From a virus, in the IMG/VR virus record IMGVR_UViG_3300042373_000061, positions 1 to 25,539 of that record: a stretch of 25,539 nt of DNA; one strand, written 5' to 3'. Below, piece by piece: positions 5,584-21,404 of the stretch (position 1 is its first letter; each line of letters begins with the position of its first letter). The translations under genes and the position numbers were made by a program. The notes beneath the pieces were generated by a model, which searched no databases, was not told the origin of the DNA, and saw only the letters and a program-made list of their open reading frames with translations.

Positions 5584-7404
5584 TTAGGGTGCGAGGGTGT
5601 TTCGACGGGCCAAATCAATTTCACGCGCTTCTTGCAAAGCAAGCGCGTTTCGTGCGGCCTGTGGGCTCGTCAGTCTGTCAGCAAAAGACCTGTAATCGGG
5701 CGTTATGCGGCGCTGTGCCGTCTGGGACAACAGATAGTTTCTCATGCCCGCTGACACCATCTCAGGAGCAAAACCACCCACACCAGCGCCGATGCCCGCT
5801 CCTACTCCCTCACCTAAAAGATAGCCTACGCCGCCGCCGACGGTGCTACCTAAGCCGCGCCCAAGCAAAGTGCCCGCAGCGGGCGCGCCGATCTGAGACG
5901 GTGTTTGCGCTACACGCGGAAAAACGTTGGCAAACTCGGCGATTGTTTTAATGTCGCCAGACACATACTTGCCGCTTTGAATGTCTCGGGCCAGTTTAGC
6001 CGCCATAACAGAGCCGCCACCTTCTTTGATGGCGTCTTCTACGCTGTGGCTAATAGCCATTCGTTGCCGAGACAACCGAAACTGCTCAAGCATCTTTGCG
6101 GCGTTAGGATTGTTGGCGGCCGTCAATGCTCGCTCAATCTGGTTTTCCAGCGCGTTAGCCATAGCAATTTGCGCGTTTCCGAGCGACGTGTCCCCGCTGT
6201 TAAAATTGCCTTTGGCGTCTTCACGCAATGTTTTGACGGCTGTGAGGGCGTCGCTAGCTTGAAACTTGTCTACAGTGTAATTTTTTACCAAATTGCCAAC
6301 TTTTTGTGGAACCGCGCCAGGAAAAGACCCCTCCGCGCCCGAGTACTTGGCTTCTATCCCTACCAAGTCATCTAAGAACGCAGAGTCAGTAGCCACAGAC
6401 CCCACCCTATTGAGAGGGGCGTACCCCTTTTCAAACTCGGCCTTGCGAATTTGACGCATTGACTCAGACGTTAAAGGCGAGTTAGGCGGTAGCCCAACAG
6501 CTTGTCTGGCAAGCCTATCGGTTACGGCTTGATTTTGAACTGACGCAAGCTGCTCCAAGTGAGTTTTGCCTGCAATTCGTTCAGCCAAAATGTTTTTGCC
6601 CGTGGGGGAAACGGCGCCGGGGGTGACGACATAGCCCTCAGATTGCGCAGCGCGGAGGGTAGCGTCACGCACAGCGTTGGCTTGCTGTTCTGCAACCAAC
6701 GCGCTGGGTAAAACTTTACGTTTTTGCTGGAGCGCAAACTGCGCCGTCTTTACGACAGGCGTCAGCGGGTTGGTTACGGCCGCTGCGGTGTCAAGCGCCC
6801 CTGAAACGCTGGGCCCGACTCTAGCCGCTGTCGCGGCGCCAGTTTCTAGGACTCCAGAAACTTGCGGGGCGTATCTAGATGTTGTTCTTGCGCCGACATC
6901 CAACGCCTTAGCTACTGACGATGAAGTTTTTGACGCCAGCGTGGAGCCGCCAGAAAACAACATAGACAAATCAGCGGCGGCGCCTACAGGGTCTTCAGCC
7001 AATGTGCGTTTGATGCTGTCATACGACCCATAGCGGTCTTTATACAGGCCGCCTACCGCATTGGCTGCTTCGACTGCGCGCGCGGCGGCGGCGGGGTTGC
7101 CTTCAAATCTATTGATAAAGTTAACTACCGTGTCAGGCAGCGCTTTTTGTAGTGCGCCAGCACCCACATCTAGCACTGCTGATACGGTTTGCAGGGGATT
7201 AGCGACGGCCTCGTACAAATTCGTGGCGAACTGTTTAGCGCTTCGCGGTAAGTTAGCCACGGCTGCGCCGGGCACTTCAGCCGCCGCGTAAGACCGCCGA
7301 GGGCCTGGAATGCCCGACGGCGTTGTTGCCACAGGTTTAGCATCAAACCTGTCAAAAATATTAGCCGTCGGCGCGTCAAATTGGTCATACGGGTTGGCTG
7401 CCAT
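5584..7404 (-). CDS. ejection/internal virion protein in P22 gp16 position
   Basis: This 606-residue protein is the third large gene after the gp7-like gene, the place of P22 gp16 (609 residues). Sequence identity to gp16 is not something I can show; the call rests on order and size. The N-terminus has two copies of a D-Q/R-F-D motif (YDQFDAP, FDRFDAK). Most of the rest is Ala-rich helix. Residues about 511-544 form a glycine zipper (GLGSTVGGGVGYLLGEGVGA and GIGAGVGG), a pattern that fits insertion into a membrane, as expected of ejected proteins that help DNA cross the cell envelope. An AGGAGGT ribosome binding site precedes the start. It is the last virion gene before lysis. Confidence 0.72.
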   Translation of the reverse strand: MAANPYDQFDAPTANIFDRFDAKPVATTPSGIPGPRRSYAAAEVPGAAVANLPRSAKQFATNLYEAVANPLQTVSAVLDVGAGALQKALPDTVVNFINRFEGNPAAAARAVEAANAVGGLYKDRYGSYDSIKRTLAEDPVGAAADLSMLFSGGSTLASKTSSSVAKALDVGARTTSRYAPQVSGVLETGAATAARVGPSVSGALDTAAAVTNPLTPVVKTAQFALQQKRKVLPSALVAEQQANAVRDATLRAAQSEGYVVTPGAVSPTGKNILAERIAGKTHLEQLASVQNQAVTDRLARQAVGLPPNSPLTSESMRQIRKAEFEKGYAPLNRVGSVATDSAFLDDLVGIEAKYSGAEGSFPGAVPQKVGNLVKNYTVDKFQASDALTAVKTLREDAKGNFNSGDTSLGNAQIAMANALENQIERALTAANNPNAAKMLEQFRLSRQRMAISHSVEDAIKEGGGSVMAAKLARDIQSGKYVSGDIKTIAEFANVFPRVAQTPSQIGAPAAGTLLGRGLGSTVGGGVGYLLGEGVGAGIGAGVGGFAPEMVSAGMRNYLLSQTAQRRITPDYRSFADRLTSPQAARNALALQEAREIDLARRNTLAP

Positions 7405-9282
7405 TTATTGACCTCCTAAAGCCCGAGCAGCCGCGCCTGCGCCGTATTTTTTGTCGAATTCTGCGCGCGTTGTGGGATTGGCGCGCAAAAAATTTATTGC
7501 TGCTTGTGGCGGCGCAGCATCTGCACCCGCGCCGGCGGGGCGTGGGGGTGGCTCTTCTACTGTAAGCGGAATGTTGGTTTTGATGCCTTTGACGTCTCTA
7601 TTGTGACGTGCGATAACATTGCGCGCCGCGCGTTCGTTAATGTCAAGAATGCGGTTGATAGCTTTGGCATCAAGCGTAATTTTGCTGCCCGCCATTTTTT
7701 CCGCGTACTCGCGGTCAGCGTTAGACAGACCCGTACCGGCGCCGAACTGTTTGATAAGGCGCCCTACGTTGTTCGCCATGTTGGCTGCAAATGCTTGAGA
7801 ATTGGCCGCAGCGTCTGCGTAGCCCGAATCAATTCCAACAGTCTTCAAGGCTTGGTTCAAATTAACTAAAAATTCGGCGCCTGCGCCAGTAATCATGCCC
7901 GCTTGCATGATCTGGCGCCCAGTGTTCACGGTGTCAATAATACTTGCGGCTTCTTGCGCAACCACTTGATTAGTAAGAATTCGTTCTGATTGGCCTTTAC
8001 CAAGACCTGTTTCAAATGCGCTTTCCTGTTTTCCACCAGTCACGGTGACACTGCTAGTCGATCTGTTCACCGCGCCTGTGTACGGGACTCGAACTTGTTT
8101 ACCAGATGCGTCTACCCCAATCTTAAATTGCGCGTCTGTGTTTTTATCAACATAAACCGGCGTGTCAGTTCCTTTGGCAACACCAATTATTTCAACTCTC
8201 GGCGTAACCGGTGCTGCCGGCGCTGTAGCAACCACATTGCCGCTAGCGTCGTACACAACTGAACCTGGCGAGGCAGTAATCCTCTTAGACATCAGCGCAA
8301 TGTCTGCATCCAAAGACTTAGCGGCTTGCAGGGCGCGAGGAGTTCCAAGCGCGATAAGCTGATCTCGCCGAGTCCGAAGCGCCGCAACAGGGTCTGCCGA
8401 CGGCGCGGCCGACGGCGCGGCCGCCGCCGCAGCTCCACCAGCAGCCGCCAACTGGTTGACGTTTTCAGGTGGCGCAGTGGGTGCGAGGGCGTTAGCCTGA
8501 GCAGCAGGCCCATAGCCCAAATCTTGAGCAGCACGGGTCTCAGGCGACAAAAGATCGCGGCTGAGTTGCGAGAACGCAGGCACTCGCCCAGCAGACACGC
8601 CAGGAATTTTCATGCTGGGCAAAGCACGTTCTATAGCCGCTTGTTCTTCTGGCGGCGCACGAAGAATGTCGGCGATCATTGACTCTGTGCCCGTGTACGG
8701 GCCTTGCGGCATTCTCATGCTTTGGATGCCACCAGGGCCAGCACTTGCAGCCATCTCAGCTTTGTCAGCCGCCGACATGCGTGAAAGCCCCGGCTGTGCA
8801 AGTCCAATATCGCTGATGCGGGCGCTGTCAAAAGTCCCTGTGCCCAAAGTGCCCATTCGCACATCTTTGCCTGCAATCGGGAATGTCGGCGTTGCCCCCG
8901 CCGCAGACGTTGGTGCAGTTGCAGCAGCGCCGCCAGTTGCAGGACGAGCGCCGCCGCCCATGATTCTCGCAAAGGCGTCCAGCTCGTCTAAGTCTTTTTC
9001 TAGCGTCAAGCCAAACTGCATAAACTCTGGGACGCCCGACTGCACATACGCTCTTGCGATTTCACGGCGGTCAGTCGGGCCGCCATTCTTTGCCGCGGCG
9101 GCTTGAATTTGGCTTATGGCTCGGTCTTTTCGGCGCAGGGCTTCCAGTTGCATGTCGGCAATTTCAGTCTGACGCTGACCACCTACAATCTGTTGGACTT
9201 GCGCGTACTCGGCCAGCGCATTACGCGGCCTAAACTCGGGCTGGCGAAAGCTCATCGCAATGTTAGGGTTAACGAGTGCCAT
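7405..9282 (-). CDS. internal virion protein in P22 gp20 position
   Basis: This 625-residue protein ends directly against the start of the next gene. It follows the gp7-like gene, the place of P22 gp20 (471 residues), so an ejection role is inferred from order. The first 60 residues contain a helical, Gln-rich stretch (ALAEYAQVQQIVGGQRQTEI). The middle is low-complexity Ala/Pro/Ser, including a coded tandem repeat. The last third (VVAQEAASIIDTVNTGRQIM, then NMANNVGRLIKQFGAGTGLS, ITLDAKAINRILDINERAA) is helical and better ordered. There is no enzyme motif. The C-terminus has FLRANPTTRAEFDKKYG, a tail seen at the end of many phage virion proteins. Confidence 0.65.
   Translation of the reverse strand: MALVNPNIAMSFRQPEFRPRNALAEYAQVQQIVGGQRQTEIADMQLEALRRKDRAISQIQAAAAKNGGPTDRREIARAYVQSGVPEFMQFGLTLEKDLDELDAFARIMGGGARPATGGAAATAPTSAAGATPTFPIAGKDVRMGTLGTGTFDSARISDIGLAQPGLSRMSAADKAEMAASAGPGGIQSMRMPQGPYTGTESMIADILRAPPEEQAAIERALPSMKIPGVSAGRVPAFSQLSRDLLSPETRAAQDLGYGPAAQANALAPTAPPENVNQLAAAGGAAAAAAPSAAPSADPVAALRTRRDQLIALGTPRALQAAKSLDADIALMSKRITASPGSVVYDASGNVVATAPAAPVTPRVEIIGVAKGTDTPVYVDKNTDAQFKIGVDASGKQVRVPYTGAVNRSTSSVTVTGGKQESAFETGLGKGQSERILTNQVVAQEAASIIDTVNTGRQIMQAGMITGAGAEFLVNLNQALKTVGIDSGYADAAANSQAFAANMANNVGRLIKQFGAGTGLSNADREYAEKMAGSKITLDAKAINRILDINERAARNVIARHNRDVKGIKTNIPLTVEEPPPRPAGAGADAAPPQAAINFLRANPTTRAEFDKKYGAGAAARALGGQ
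7409..7420 (-). promoter_or_regulatory. strong ribosome binding site of the gp16-position gene
   Basis: On the - strand an AGGAGGT sequence precedes the ATG at 7404 by a short spacer and lies within the last codons of the upstream gene. It matches the ideal Shine-Dalgarno sequence, stronger than most others here, which mainly use AAGGA or GGAG. Confidence 0.7.
8396..8419. repeat. 12-bp perfect tandem repeat, two copies
   Basis: GCCGACGGCGCG occurs twice in a row, followed by a GCC-rich run. It lies in frame in the gp20-position gene and encodes a repeated Ala-Pro-Ser-Ala low-complexity linker. The length is a multiple of three, so copy-number change would keep the frame. Confidence 0.85.
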
Positions 9283-15767: not shown

Positions 15768-16301
15768 TCAATTTCCTTTCAATGTCAAAGAAGTTTGGTG
15801 AGGACAAACGCCGCCGTTCTTATGTTTCCCTACTTGACAGTTCATACACAACACTTGATACCCCGAAGGGAACTTGTTTTTACGTAGCCACTGGTAGAAA
15901 GCCGTACCGCTTCCGCGATACAAGCCCGATTTTCGTTCAGTTGCGCCGTTGTTGTCTATGTGGTCTATCGAAAGAAACATTGGTTCATCTTCGCCGCAGC
16001 ATTTGCAAATGTAACCGCCGTAAGCGTCAAACACTTGGTCTTTGCAGGCCGCTTGCAAGCGTCGGGTTTTGTCTGCTTCTGCCTTCCGTATTCGGTTAGC
16101 TTCTTCAGGTGTTGCCTGGGCTAGCTTGCGGGTACGTGATTCACGAGACTGCTTACGGACTTTCTCCCGATTTGCTTCTCGCCAATCGCGCATACGCTGA
16201 TTGAACTTTTCCCGGTTTCGTTCTCGGTATCTGGCCGCTGCCTCTTTGTTGCGTTGCCGCTTCAATTCGTCAGGTGTCAGATGCTGATTGTCACTCTCCA
16301 T
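15768..16301 (-). CDS. HNH homing-type endonuclease inserted between scaffold and coat genes
   Basis: This 177-residue protein starts at the ATG at 16301 with AGGAG six bases upstream. Residues about 20-60 are basic with imperfect repeats of RERNREK / REANREKVRK, probably DNA-binding. The nuclease part has Cys pairs at about 99/102 and 152/155 for zinc, the catalytic D-H at 113-114 (SIDHIDNNG) and a C-terminal CMNCQVGKHKNGG. It is a free-standing HNH endonuclease of the homing type. In P22 the scaffold and coat genes are adjacent, so it appears to be a guest; its 3' end contains the coat ribosome binding site. GC looks lower than the genes on either side. Confidence 0.88.
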   Translation of the reverse strand: MESDNQHLTPDELKRQRNKEAAARYRERNREKFNQRMRDWREANREKVRKQSRESRTRKLAQATPEEANRIRKAEADKTRRLQAACKDQVFDAYGGYICKCCGEDEPMFLSIDHIDNNGATERKSGLYRGSGTAFYQWLRKNKFPSGYQVLCMNCQVGKHKNGGVCPHQTSLTLKGN

Positions 16302-17134: not shown

Positions 17135-17180
17135 TTTCGATTCTTGTGAATCCCTGGTCTACCGGGCCAGTACAGGTTGT

Positions 17181-17196
17181 GCCGCTATTATGCGGC
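17181..17196 (-). promoter_or_regulatory. hairpin enclosing a tandem stop codon
   Basis: GCCGC (17181-17185) pairs with GCGGC (17192-17196), extended by one pair at 17180/17197. On the - strand the six-base loop is ATAATA; the TAA stop of the gene at 17188 begins in it and is followed directly by an in-frame TAG. The stop is therefore placed in the hairpin loop. Confidence 0.55.
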
Positions 17197-17439
17197 AGAT
17201 TCTTTCACTTGTGCAGCTTTGTACGCAGCCACAACATCTTTGGTGTGCAGGGCCTTGCAAATGGCCTGCACCTTGGCATCCTCGGAGCTGTAGTCGTCGC
17301 CAGGGGCGACAACGCGGCGGTGAAACTTGCTGCTGATCTCAACGCCATCTTCTTTGATGGCGGTCTTAGTGCGAACTTGCACGCAGTCGTTTTCGACCAC
17401 TTCAATCAGATCAACTAGGGTAACTTTTTCGAGAGACAT
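17188..17439 (-). CDS. small conserved phage protein upstream of scaffold gene
   Basis: This 83-residue protein starts at the ATG at 17439, with AAGGAAAC upstream. It is beta then alpha: LEKVTLVDLIEVVENDCVQV, RTKTAIKEDGVEISSKFHRR, VVAPGDDYSSEDAKVQAICK, ALHTKDVVAAYKAA. The V-L-I-E-V-x-E-N-x-x-x-Q-V-R-T / F-H-R-x-V-x-x-P pattern is shared with short proteins of other phages, where it often lies near virion genes. No membrane segment and no catalytic motif. Function unknown; possibly a small tail or fibre-associated domain. Confidence 0.72.
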   Translation of the reverse strand: MSLEKVTLVDLIEVVENDCVQVRTKTAIKEDGVEISSKFHRRVVAPGDDYSSEDAKVQAICKALHTKDVVAAYKAAQVKESAA

Positions 17440-17510: not shown

Positions 17511-19355
17511 TTAATTTGGTAATACTGTGTTGGCGGGCAATGTGCTTTTTGACCAAGCCAGCACACCCGCAGCGTTTTTGCTGGAGTTGCCAGTAATCGC
17601 TAAAATGTCAAAAGTGCTGGTTGTTTGAACAACATCTTCTTGTGAAGATTGGCTGACGTTGTAAAAACGGTTGTTGACCATCTCAAACGTGCCATTGTGG
17701 TCAAGGATGTCTACTCTGCGTGGGGAATATTCCGATGTCCAAGTGGAAAGATTGCGATCCAGCAGAACATATTTCATTCGGCTGAGTGAAAGTGTTCGAC
17801 CGTTTTCAATAGTGTTGTAACAAAATCTCAATTGTGCTTTGCTTGCAGCGTTTGTGCCGCCATCAATTTGCAAGCCACGATCCATGTTGCCAGATGCGCC
17901 GACAAATCTGTTGTTTGTAATGTTGATGTTGTTGACAACAATGTCAGCGCCATCGTCAAGTGTCATTACAAAATAACCACCACCAAGGTTGAAGCAGTTG
18001 TTGTTTTCAATGTACACGTTGCTGATGTCAAACTCAGGAACTGCGCCGCTGTTGTTTCTGATGTAAACAAAAACGCTTGCGCCAGCAGAAGAAGCCAAAG
18101 CACCCTTGTCTTGCGACGTGAACGTGTTGTTCTGGATGTATAAACCATCAATGGATGTGTTGTTGTTCTGCTGAAGCACAACACCAGTTAACCCTCGCAT
18201 GATGTTGCCAACAATCTGCGTGTTTGTTGAGTGGCCAACAGAACCCACAGAATCAAGCAGTGTGAATTGAATACAATCGCCAATGCCTGCGGCATTTACG
18301 TCTGTCAAATAAATAAAGTTATTGCAGATTGTTGCGGCCTGAGGCGAAATAAGACGTATGCCAGTAGATGCCGCCCCAAGTTGCGAAACGTAGATATAGT
18401 TGTTTTGAAAATTTACGCCTTCGTTGACATTTTCATTGGCAAACGAGCCAGGCAAGAAAGCAAGGCCGTAACTGGTGACAAACAATCGGCAACCGACAAC
18501 ATTGATGTTGCTTGTGTCGTATGATCTGATGTCCAACTCATTGCCAAAGTCAATTCCTCGTCCAGCGGGGGTTTGGTTATCATTGACGACGATGTTTTCA
18601 AAAAATACGTTTCGTCCTGTGCAGTTAATTACAGAGCCGCCAGTGTGTGTAATTCGTGCATTTTTAACAACAACACCATCGGTGTAGTAAAAACTGACAT
18701 GGGTGGAAGTGTTGATTGGCGCACTCCCGTCAGCTCTCCAGTCAACAATGCTGATTGCTGAACACTCGTAGAACGCTGGGCCTTCTTCCCTGATTTTTGA
18801 TGTCTTCAGGTTTTGAAAGCTGACCCTTGTGCAGCGGTCAAATTGTGCAACGCCGAATTGCAAGGTTTGCCGCATTGTCAACGTGCTGTTCAGATTGGTG
18901 ACAAAATCAAACAACTCACAGTTTTCAAACGACATGTTGTCCACCAGCACGAACAACAAGCTGTTGATACTGGTTACATCCGGCCCGACAACATAGTTGA
19001 AGTTGCCTTTGGCAAAGTTGAACTTGATGTTGGAAAAGGCGATGTTTGTGTTGCCGTTAACGGTGTCTGCGTTGCGGAACATCTGGTTCGGGTAACCACC
19101 CACGCCGCCGCCTTGTGGCGTCATGATGCCCAGAAACTCAGTACCTGGTGCGCCTTGCAACCACACGTTGCTGGGCACCAAAACTGTCCCTGCAATTTTG
19201 TACGTCAATGGCTCAAAAATGATAATGCTGCCAGCGTTTACTGCTGCTTGAATTGCAGCGGTATCGTCCGTGGTTCCATCGCCAACTGCGCCAAAATCTT
19301 TAGGATTGACGACAGGGCCGTCAATCATCGAATAAGTTACTTTGGTCAAAGACAT
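17511..19355 (-). CDS. tailspike with right-handed beta-helix (pectate-lyase-3 type)
   Basis: This 614-residue protein starts at the ATG at 19355 with AAGGA upstream. A short N-terminal peptide (MSLTKVTYSMIDGPVV) leads straight into NPKDFGAVGDGTTDDTAAIQ, the hallmark start of a pectate-lyase-3 beta-helix. Many short repeats of the type N-x-x-x-x-N-N (IQNNTFTSQDKG, VYIENNNCFNLGG, NINITNNRFVG) follow to near residue 580. Such spikes bind and often cut surface polysaccharide. No catalytic residues can be named from sequence alone, and no separate C-terminal trimerisation domain is obvious. It lacks its own P22-type head-binding domain; that domain is the separate gene at 20555. GC looks distinctly lower than the genes around it. 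Confidence 0.85.
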   Translation of the reverse strand: MSLTKVTYSMIDGPVVNPKDFGAVGDGTTDDTAAIQAAVNAGSIIIFEPLTYKIAGTVLVPSNVWLQGAPGTEFLGIMTPQGGGVGGYPNQMFRNADTVNGNTNIAFSNIKFNFAKGNFNYVVGPDVTSINSLLFVLVDNMSFENCELFDFVTNLNSTLTMRQTLQFGVAQFDRCTRVSFQNLKTSKIREEGPAFYECSAISIVDWRADGSAPINTSTHVSFYYTDGVVVKNARITHTGGSVINCTGRNVFFENIVVNDNQTPAGRGIDFGNELDIRSYDTSNINVVGCRLFVTSYGLAFLPGSFANENVNEGVNFQNNYIYVSQLGAASTGIRLISPQAATICNNFIYLTDVNAAGIGDCIQFTLLDSVGSVGHSTNTQIVGNIMRGLTGVVLQQNNNTSIDGLYIQNNTFTSQDKGALASSAGASVFVYIRNNSGAVPEFDISNVYIENNNCFNLGGGYFVMTLDDGADIVVNNINITNNRFVGASGNMDRGLQIDGGTNAASKAQLRFCYNTIENGRTLSLSRMKYVLLDRNLSTWTSEYSPRRVDILDHNGTFEMVNNRFYNVSQSSQEDVVQTTSTFDILAITGNSSKNAAGVLAWSKSTLPANTVLPN

Positions 19356-19364
19356 TATTGTTCC

Positions 19365-20045
19365 TTAAACAAAATAAGTTAGTGTGAAGTAAATTCGACC
19401 GTTTATCGTAATGGAACCGACCGAATAAACCAAAGTGCCAGCGGCATATACCGAACCACCTTGATTTAAGTCTACGTTGTTGAACACGCCTGTGCTATCG
19501 GCGTTTACGGTAAACGGCAACCCGGTGCAAATAACCACACCAGAGGAGGCGGCGACAGAAGTTGATCCGATAAGCAGGCCGATGACAGTGACTTGCCTGC
19601 CCACCTTGGTGTATCTGCCAGATGATGAAAACGTGCCGACAACTGTAAGACCACCACCTTGACCCGGTGTCCAAGTACCTTCTTCATAGTCACTCAGCAA
19701 CTCGCTTGTGCCTGTGCCCGGTGTGGCAGAAAAATCGATGCCTTTGCCGTCTGTGCCAATGACAAGGTTGCCTGTTGATAGCGTTTGGTCGCCAGTAAAC
19801 GATTGCGCTGCGTCTGTGCGGGCCGCAGTAAAGTTGGCGTCTGGCGTAGTCATTACGCGGGTGGTGCTTGCGCCCGGCCCGGCGACTTGCAAGATACCCG
19901 TGGTTGCGTTTGACCGCACATTTTTGACCGTCAAATCATCAGTCGCAACTTTTTTGGTGCTGCTCGACTGCACAATCGGCAGAACTTCGGTGCCCGCAAG
20001 CGGAAGGGTTGCCGAAGTAAGTTGGGAAATTTTGAGGTCAGCCAT
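19365..20045 (-). CDS. tail fibre protein (adaptor-like)
   Basis: This 226-residue protein starts at the ATG at 20045 with AAGGAT upstream. The N-terminal part (ADLKISQLTSATLPLAGTEV, then LPIVQSSSTKKVATDDLTVK) is a widespread phage fibre pattern, as is ANFTAARTDAAQSFTGDQT. The C-terminal part has SDYEEGTWTPG and SSSGRYTKVGRQVTVIGLLI, a beta-sandwich tip seen at the end of other fibres. It is short for a full fibre, and lies between the anchor protein and the spike. It may be a branch or adaptor protein linking the two, or an independent receptor-binding tip. Confidence 0.75.
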   Translation of the reverse strand: MADLKISQLTSATLPLAGTEVLPIVQSSSTKKVATDDLTVKNVRSNATTGILQVAGPGASTTRVMTTPDANFTAARTDAAQSFTGDQTLSTGNLVIGTDGKGIDFSATPGTGTSELLSDYEEGTWTPGQGGGLTVVGTFSSSGRYTKVGRQVTVIGLLIGSTSVAASSGVVICTGLPFTVNADSTGVFNNVDLNQGGSVYAAGTLVYSVGSITINGRIYFTLTYFV

Positions 20046-20054
20046 GATGAATCC

Positions 20055-20555
20055 TTAAACGTAGTTGACTTCGATTGACGAAGTAACTGGGGGCGCTTCT
20101 GAGAACGTGACAACAACACCAGCGATGCTGTAGGTGTTTTTCTGCTGGTACACGCCGTTAATGTATATGTTGGTCGCGTTTTCGCCTGCGGGAGCGCTTG
20201 CCAAATTGAACGTGGTATCCGTGCCGTCACCCGTAAAGTTAGCGATGATTGCGGTAGCGTTGAAGCTGCTACCCACATTGTCGTATGTGGCAATCGTAAC
20301 GTCTGCGCTTGTTTTCAGGACAAACTTGTACAAACGCAACTGGTTCCAAATCTCGCCCCCAGGCACCCGGCCAGCGGAGTCCAAAATAATTGGGTTGGTG
20401 TGTGCCGTATTGCCGGTGCTTGATGTGTACGTTGCCAGCGGCGTGGTTGTACCGGCCTCGTAGGTAAAAATCTTGCCGCCAGTTAGGATGACCCCGTTGT
20501 TGTCAAAAAACTGAGCGCCAACGCCGCCAAAAATTGAGAGCGATACAGCGGGCAT
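20055..20555 (-). CDS. tailspike anchor: P22 gp9 head-binding-like domain as its own gene
   Basis: This 166-residue protein starts at the ATG at 20555 with GGAG upstream. Residues about 15-105 (FDNNGVILTGGKIFTYEAGT, TTPLATYTSSTGNTAHTNPI, ILDSAGRVPGGEIW, YKFVLKTSADVTIATYDNVG) match the pattern of the P22 tailspike head-binding domain, which fixes the spike to the tail. The rest (FTGDGTDTTFNLASAPAGEN, then IYINGVYQQKNTYSIAG) is a common phage fibre linker domain. No receptor-binding part follows; the gene stops and the fibre gene begins. It may be a docking protein for the fibre or spike encoded downstream. Confidence 0.78.
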   Translation of the reverse strand: MPAVSLSIFGGVGAQFFDNNGVILTGGKIFTYEAGTTTPLATYTSSTGNTAHTNPIILDSAGRVPGGEIWNQLRLYKFVLKTSADVTIATYDNVGSSFNATAIIANFTGDGTDTTFNLASAPAGENATNIYINGVYQQKNTYSIAGVVVTFSEAPPVTSSIEVNYV

Positions 20556-21038: not shown

Positions 21039-21404
21039 TTACGCCAGGAATTTGAGTTTGTACAAGGTGGTCAAGTACAGTTCGACGATATTATCAATCA
21101 ACTGCTGCAACGAGGTGTCTTCTTTTTTCGCCACCTTGTAGCGCATCTCCTCAACCTCGGCCAGCGATGCCTCAAGGAACTCGGTGATGTTGGTCGTCTT
21201 CTTGGCCGAGTGTAGGGTAATGGGGCCAATCAGCCCGTGACGCCCTTGGTACGCCTCGGCAAACGCATCAGCGTGGTCGATGATGGTGTCGTAAAAAGTG
21301 TTGAGCGCCACATGCTTAGAGTAGCTGCGCGTGTTCAGATGCACCGAGTGGGCTACGTCGCGGGCCAAGAACAAGAGGCCCATGAAGTCTGCGGCGGTGC
21401 TCAT
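21039..21404 (-). CDS. DUF5856-type helical protein
   Basis: This 121-residue protein starts at the ATG at 21404, overlapping the portal stop (ATGA). The pattern FMGLLFLARDVAHSVHLNTR, SYSKHVALNTFYDTIIDHAD, AFAEAYQGRHGLIGPI matches what I know as DUF5856, a phage family with helices that recall Dps/ferritin-like bundles. Several His, Asp and Glu residues in the helices could bind metal, but the fold and metal are not shown by sequence. Translational coupling to the portal suggests it is made in step with head assembly. Function is unknown. Confidence 0.75.
   Translation of the reverse strand: MSTAADFMGLLFLARDVAHSVHLNTRSYSKHVALNTFYDTIIDHADAFAEAYQGRHGLIGPITLHSAKKTTNITEFLEASLAEVEEMRYKVAKKEDTSLQQLIDNIVELYLTTLYKLKFLA

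Follow-up and report, generated by a model that had tools for sequence, protein, structure and literature searches.

A stand-alone P22-type head-binding protein with exchangeable spike genes: a candidate adapter-type adsorption module, split over separate genes, in P22-like short-tailed phages

Adapter proteins that serve separate receptor-binding proteins (RBPs) are already known from phages K1-5 and SP6 (Autographiviridae), whose gp37, as described in PMC6872550, is a small stand-alone protein with a virion-binding N-terminus and T4gp10-like docking, and without a receptor part. Here we describe a comparable locus in the IMG/VR virus record IMGVR_UViG_3300042373_000061, whose positions 1 to 25,539 (25.5 kb; hereafter the window) contain a head-to-tail block of three minus-strand genes encoding an anchor, a fibre and a beta-helix tailspike. 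What is new is the combination of P22-type head binding with one XD domain in a stand-alone adapter; a search of the open-licence PMC literature brought up no account of a stand-alone adapter with a P22-type head-binding domain. We consider it rather likely that in this block, carried by a freshwater virus of bacteria, short-tailed P22-like phages have an adsorption module of the split, adapter type.

The likeness to gp37 has its limits, as that protein possesses a T7-fibre-like N-terminus, two docking sites and about 300 residues, whereas the anchor is P22-type, with a single XD domain and 166 residues. The T7/K1F-like N-terminus (PF03906) was not found in the window anchor and was matched in one of 12 relatives (expectation value, E, 0.0063); since this defining feature is lacking, the anchor is not classed as a member of the K1-5/SP6 adapters. 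As in those phages, the RBPs are separate and carry a short conserved N-terminal peptide, present here in all 90 complete spikes. The gp37 adapter serves two RBPs; in the window, a fibre gene and a spike gene are both present. The K5 lyase is described as docking on K1-5 gp37 through such a peptide, MAKLTKP (PMC6872550), and this shares LTK with the spike start described here, a match that is short and may be due to chance.

Other systems resemble single parts of the locus. The P22/Sf6-type and the Pam1/Pan3 tailspikes share the head-binding fold, and the window holds relatives of the P22-like portal, gp4 and gp10; yet, in P22 the head-binding domain is fused to the beta-helix, while here it has its own gene and an extra XD domain. 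Anchor residues 101–166 superpose on XD2 of phage CBA120 TSP4, but TSP4 and G7C gp66 (domains XD2–XD3) contain several XD domains within a spike that has a receptor part, in contrast to the one terminal XD domain found here. In Vibrio phage 5P1a, p0040 joins a PF09008 head-binding domain to an XD/DUF4183-like domain and is followed by a second spike, p0039, beginning MVTKTNNRMIDGSPVNV; it retains its own beta-helix, however, and thus represents an anchor-branch rather than an adapter. In turn, the subunits of F-ENA spore appendages belong to the DUF4183 family and, according to a preprint (PMC11952670), form trimers that take a 7-residue N-terminal hook in the inter-protomer cleft. These are cellular pili, though, with a different hook motif (M-P-hydrophobic-hydrophobic) and a fold similarity of Z 6.4–7.3 only. 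The anchor itself begins MPAVSLSIFGG, without the second proline of the F-ENA hook M-P-x-x-(polar)-P-x, and this start leads into the head-binding domain.

The anchor gene (20055..20555) is an open reading frame (ORF) of 166 residues with two domains. The head-binding domain occupies residues about 12–95 (20271–20522) and the XD, or T4gp10-like, docking domain, which corresponds to Pfam DUF4183, residues 101–166 (20058–20255). Residues 18–94 match the head-binding domain of the Pam1 tailspike (7eeq; phmmer E=2.7e-12, profile E 1e-13), and DUF4183 (PF13799) is matched at residues 104–159 with E 1.2e-6 and 28.7 bits against a gathering cut-off of 25.1, as well as in all 12 diverse anchor relatives (E<=0.1). 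PF09008 (Head_binding) gave no match in the window anchor (E<=1) or in 12 relatives (E<=0.1), and we dropped it as proof of the domain in favour of structure comparison. An AlphaFold2 model built on a 63-sequence alignment reached a predicted local distance difference test score (pLDDT) of 93.5; an earlier one from 17 close sequences attained only 61.3, and its Foldseek list served as a lead only. VIA-align merely re-ranks Foldseek hits and no absence is claimed from it. With this tool, residues 12–95 are most like Pan3 9vyg (Z 12.6), Pam1 (Z 10.8) and P22 1lkt (Z 10.8, root-mean-square deviation 1.7 A over 83 residues), and the best fold match of residues 101–166 is TSP4 XD2 (7rfv; Z 10.5, 1.4 A over 63 residues, 22% identity), with 7rej as a further XD-type match and weaker ones in F-ENA 9hze (Z 7.3) and T4 gp10 5iv5 (Z 6.7). 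A profile of the second domain also retrieved the Kp7 tail adaptor 7y22_e (E=1.6e-8). The original prediction, made from the letters of the window, had presented the 166-residue protein as a head-binding domain with no receptor part; the separate ORF and the lack of a receptor part hold, but the head-binding relation applies to residues ~12–95 only, and the second domain had been overlooked. As it possesses this second domain, the anchor itself would serve as the adapter, and we regard it with high confidence as a two-domain stand-alone adapter.

We know of no isolate of this group. The stand-alone state was followed through 163 distinct records, comprising the contigs searched, phage DSL-LC05 (OR003940) and the window, with relatives at about 55% identity or more; two of the 40 rows of one relative set (L229 and L232) lay on contigs already counted and were excluded. 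In 163/163 the anchor is a separate ORF that ends at the same place and measures about 158–172 residues (the 5' end is truncated in two). Therefore, the split is no sequencing artefact; it is real and old. A fused form was detected in the distant Xanthomonas phage PBR31, in which head-binding, XD-like and beta-helix parts form one protein. The sole bacterial-genome match of the anchor (L127, 5713–6201) lies on a contig of an uncultured Burkholderiales metagenome-assembled genome, a hint to the host, or possibly a co-binned virus. DSL-LC05 is itself metagenome-assembled (PMC10611076).

The proteins encoded behind the anchor have conserved starts and changeable bodies. The 226-residue fibre (19365..20045; phrog_17970, E=4.9e-14) is conserved over residues 1–42, and its exchangeable C-terminal part includes a YEEGTWTP domain. 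We listed 125 loci, 80 of them complete for anchor, fibre and spike, and retained 59 after the removal of 21 near-duplicates (same first 150 residues of the spike and first 100 of the fibre). Fibre residues K5, I6, S7 and L9 are invariant in all 59. Median pairwise identity amounts to 82.4% for the head-binding part and 82.8% for the XD part of the anchor, 71.4% for fibre residues 1–42, 23.3% for the last 90 residues of the fibre, 68.2% for spike residues 1–22 and 16.6% for the spike from residue 101. Anchor identity reaches 80% or more in 1,028 pairs, and in only five of these do the spike bodies reach 40% or more; the spike-body median in this comparison is 18.3% versus 5.4% in a shuffled control, and thus a faint signal of a common fold remains. 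Conversely, the spikes of L092 and L104 are 72–75% shared, and their anchors just ~60% identical. The proposed comparison of spike with anchor identity thereby bears out that spikes are exchanged independently of the anchor.

The same exchange is visible in the DNA. The window and its relative L001 have identical anchors and unrelated spikes: their DNA is 92% identical from 24049 to 19783 (fibre codon 88) and 98% from 17175 onward, and inside the block only about the first 90 nucleotides of the spike gene are similar (75%). In blastn, similarity restarts at 17175 in seven of the 10 loci compared, which places the right boundary of the exchanged block at 17135..17175 (minus strand), 41 nucleotides ahead of the scaffold start. 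One locus, L004, has a spike body related to that of the window at 62–65%. A pattern search for relatives of the window spike body gave eight candidate stretches, none of them a relative, but this search is insensitive, as it missed L004. Spike and fibre bodies are almost certainly swapped as cassettes. The idea that the spike is swapped on its own thus holds for the spike but needs widening, because the C-terminal part of the fibre is exchanged too.

The spike gene (17511..19355, 614 residues) has a Pfam PF12708 match (E=2.4e-9) and matches to tail spike PHROGs. As anticipated, the protein starts almost at the beta-helix, with the Pfam pectate-lyase match beginning at residue 16. What precedes it is the peptide MSLTKVTYSMI (codons 1–11, 19323..19355), proposed as the docking peptide, or hook, on the grounds of its conservation. 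LTK occurs within the first 24 residues of 90/90 complete spikes, and the typical start is M(S/A)LTK(V/A)(S/T)YSMI. In the 58 of 59 spikes tabulated (one, starting one residue shorter, was omitted), L3, T4, K5 and S9 are invariant and yet encoded by 6, 3, 2 and 5 codons, respectively, which indicates selection on the protein rather than on the DNA. Similar peptides were inspected in 12 named phages, DSL-LC05 included, hand-picked from the matches listed for the peptide and not at random; they stand at the ORF start in 11 and are internal in Erwinia phage Pecta. A similar start, TKVxxRMIDGxxVNV, opens the second spikes of named phages. The upstream RBP has an XD-like domain in D148, 5P1a and 521E56-1, the three from which the profile was built, and in four of seven hook phages outside it: VPMCC5 (1e-23), 1.264.O (1.6e-18), 207E48.1 (1.5e-10, domain) and SPO1L1 (6e-5). 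The match is weak in phiBO1E (0.014), and no XD-like domain was found upstream in the stretches fetched for K475 and 2.275.O. Among seven control loci without the hook peptide one possesses such a domain (S-SRP01); in the control St11Ph5, the stretch fetched did not include the N-terminal portion of gp66.

These data would fit the following arrangement. The anchor, presumably trimeric like its relatives, would seat its head-binding domain on the portal/gp4/gp10 tail hub in the manner of the P22 tailspike, and its C-terminal XD domain would provide a trimeric docking face. We infer that the separate spike trimer plugs into the XD trimer through its first 11 residues, M(S/A)LTK(V/A)(S/T)YSMI, and we hold this seating to be somewhat favoured by analogy: the XD2 and XD3 domains of TSP4 bind partner spikes, as reported in PMC8825819. 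The XD face is assigned to the spike because the spike is never absent, while the fibre can be, and because a single XD trimer fits one partner. Crossovers in the conserved starts of fibre and spike and just before the scaffold gene would then replace the bodies while the anchor stays; both bodies could be replaced freely, as only about 11–20 residues must be kept.

Several observations weigh against this docking. CBA120 TSP1 was reported to retain TSP4 binding after removal of its first 13 residues (PMC8825819); hence such a hook is dispensable in at least one case. The sequence link between the anchor and TSP4 is weak (hmmsearch E 0.45–0.93; hhalign probability 23%). On residues 101–166 the T5 neck (9ilp, Z 10.1) ties with TSP4, and the T7 tail (7ey9, fibre N-terminus) reaches Z 9.0; the XD fold is widespread in phage neck, fibre and connector proteins. 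The association of hook and XD-like domain, 4/7 versus 1/7, is suggestive but small and not decisive. Moreover, the hook could be conserved because it caps the beta-helix fold. The peptide would then be a folding cap or trimer clamp and the docking contact would lie elsewhere in the first coils, a possibility that we rate as doubtful, though it draws on the fact that NVxDFGAxGDG, beside the peptide, is a general beta-helix start found also inside fused or other spikes. TKVxYSMI, however, is absent from the seven control spikes examined (six controls and that of Erwinia phage Pecta); six of the seven have another type of stretch (R-x-hydrophobic...) before the beta-helix start, and PAS61 has no such start.

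Two further alternatives concern the fibre, and the order of genes bears on them. In the 97 loci that extend to the scaffold or coat gene, the anchor is followed by fibre and spike (86), spike and fibre (4), another protein and spike (4) or the spike alone (3). The spike is thus present in 97/97 and directly behind the anchor in seven; the fibre is missing in seven (absent in three, replaced in four) and second in four, with the spike N-terminus unchanged in all of these. It seems unlikely that the XD domain carries the fibre and that the spike is attached elsewhere on the virion, e.g., to the head. One XD trimer does offer one partner face, the fibre gene adjoins the anchor in most loci and the spike gene lies beside the scaffold and coat genes; yet, anchor and fibre without a spike occur in 0/97 loci, and in named phages the second spikes that start similarly lie next to RBPs bearing an XD-like domain. 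A serial assembly, in which the fibre is held by the anchor and serves in turn as the adaptor for the spike, appears improbable. This link, part of the original prediction, would suit the usual order (86/97) and the fibre's own invariant N-terminal motif, but the spike start is of the same kind where the fibre is absent, replaced or placed behind the spike, and the two bodies change independently: out of 1,711 pairs, the fibre is kept and the spike changed in 85, the spike kept and the fibre changed in three, and both kept in three. Lastly, a merely formal split, in which stop-codon readthrough yields one fused product of the three genes or an assembly error separates them, is hardly credible, for although all three ORFs of the window share one frame, with TAA and 9 nucleotides between anchor and fibre and again between fibre and spike, many of the intergenic distances in relatives (2, 8, 10, 11 and others) are not divisible by three, on which ground readthrough was rejected, and the records are split without exception.

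Two candidate deviations from these architectures were discarded, namely an apparent fibre-only locus (L076), where a spike is present, and a spike-fibre fusion in L095 and L105, where the ORFs do not begin with the spike peptide. In a few other loci (L105, L109 and L110) the anchor directly precedes a gp4-like gene. The protein that stands instead of the fibre in L044, L079, L093 and L113 measures 331–389 residues and starts MITPxFxLTATERVL or similarly, its start overlapping or abutting the anchor stop codon; it may be LamG-like, and Pfam found no match in L044, the one scanned. Another fibre type, beginning MAQTGFTPIQLY, follows the anchor in L120, L244, L266, L270 and L285, and that of L270 has a weak Peptidase_S74 end (E 0.008, below cut-off).

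As a tentative broader possibility, the XD/DUF4183 trimer and the N-terminal hook may be one inherited plug-and-socket joint of branched phage spikes and spore appendages, of which this group would have reduced the socket to a minimum, with an open-ended pool of spikes circulating on an 11-residue plug. Across numerous related viruses the anchor varies little, whereas their spikes have almost nothing in common. If the proposed docking is true, a 166-residue adapter and an 11-residue plug would form a minimal natural module, in which a single small protein links P22-type head binding with the branching systems of the gp10/XD kind, and dozens of wild pairings, each of a member of the one adapter family with a different, unrelated spike, would make the docking and exchange rule directly testable.

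The spike gene had further been described as looking AT-richer than its neighbours, consistent with exchange. Its GC content, 0.459, is indeed the lowest of the 21 window genes computed. As a sign of exchange this is weak, since the spike gene exceeds the coat gene in AT content in 29/29 loci (those of the 59 with a recognised coat start); it is therefore not evidence of recent import. The GC content of third codon positions is about as low in two long window genes (7405–9282 and 5584–7404), and we rejected composition as non-specific.

The three genes are embedded in a P22-like structural block, with the portal side on one flank and scaffold and coat on the other (portal phrog_156, E 4e-131; scaffold phrog_8865; coat phrog_283). 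The window also encodes a DNA-ejection family, a gp4-like Ad3 (E 1e-10) and a gp10-like Hc3 (E 4e-137); we take the last two to be equivalent to P22 gp4 and gp10. In the 9-nucleotide spacer between anchor and fibre (20046..20054, minus strand), the anchor stop codon TAA and the following GGA form TAAGGA, likely the Shine-Dalgarno sequence of the fibre gene, and TAAGGA is the commonest opening of the 12 nucleotides preceding that gene in the 59 non-redundant loci. Promoter-like sites in the block (3 versus 3.1 in shuffles) and terminator-like sites (10 versus 6.3, standard deviation 2.3) are not clearly above background.

Three further minus-strand genes surround the block. Between portal and anchor, 21039–21404 encodes a DUF5856 / phrog_858 'starvation-inducible transcriptional regulator' protein. 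Inserted between scaffold and coat is a gene for a 177-residue protein (15768–16301) that has no Pfam match and by eye resembles an HNH endonuclease, with a DHIDNNG motif and cysteine pairs; the DNA similarity to L003 skips this gene. Between spike and scaffold, 17188–17439 encodes a small phrog_6228 protein that occurs in 47 of 97 relatives; it begins MSLEKV, and similar small genes at this place begin MALEK, MLEK or MALTK, all resembling the first residues of the spike.

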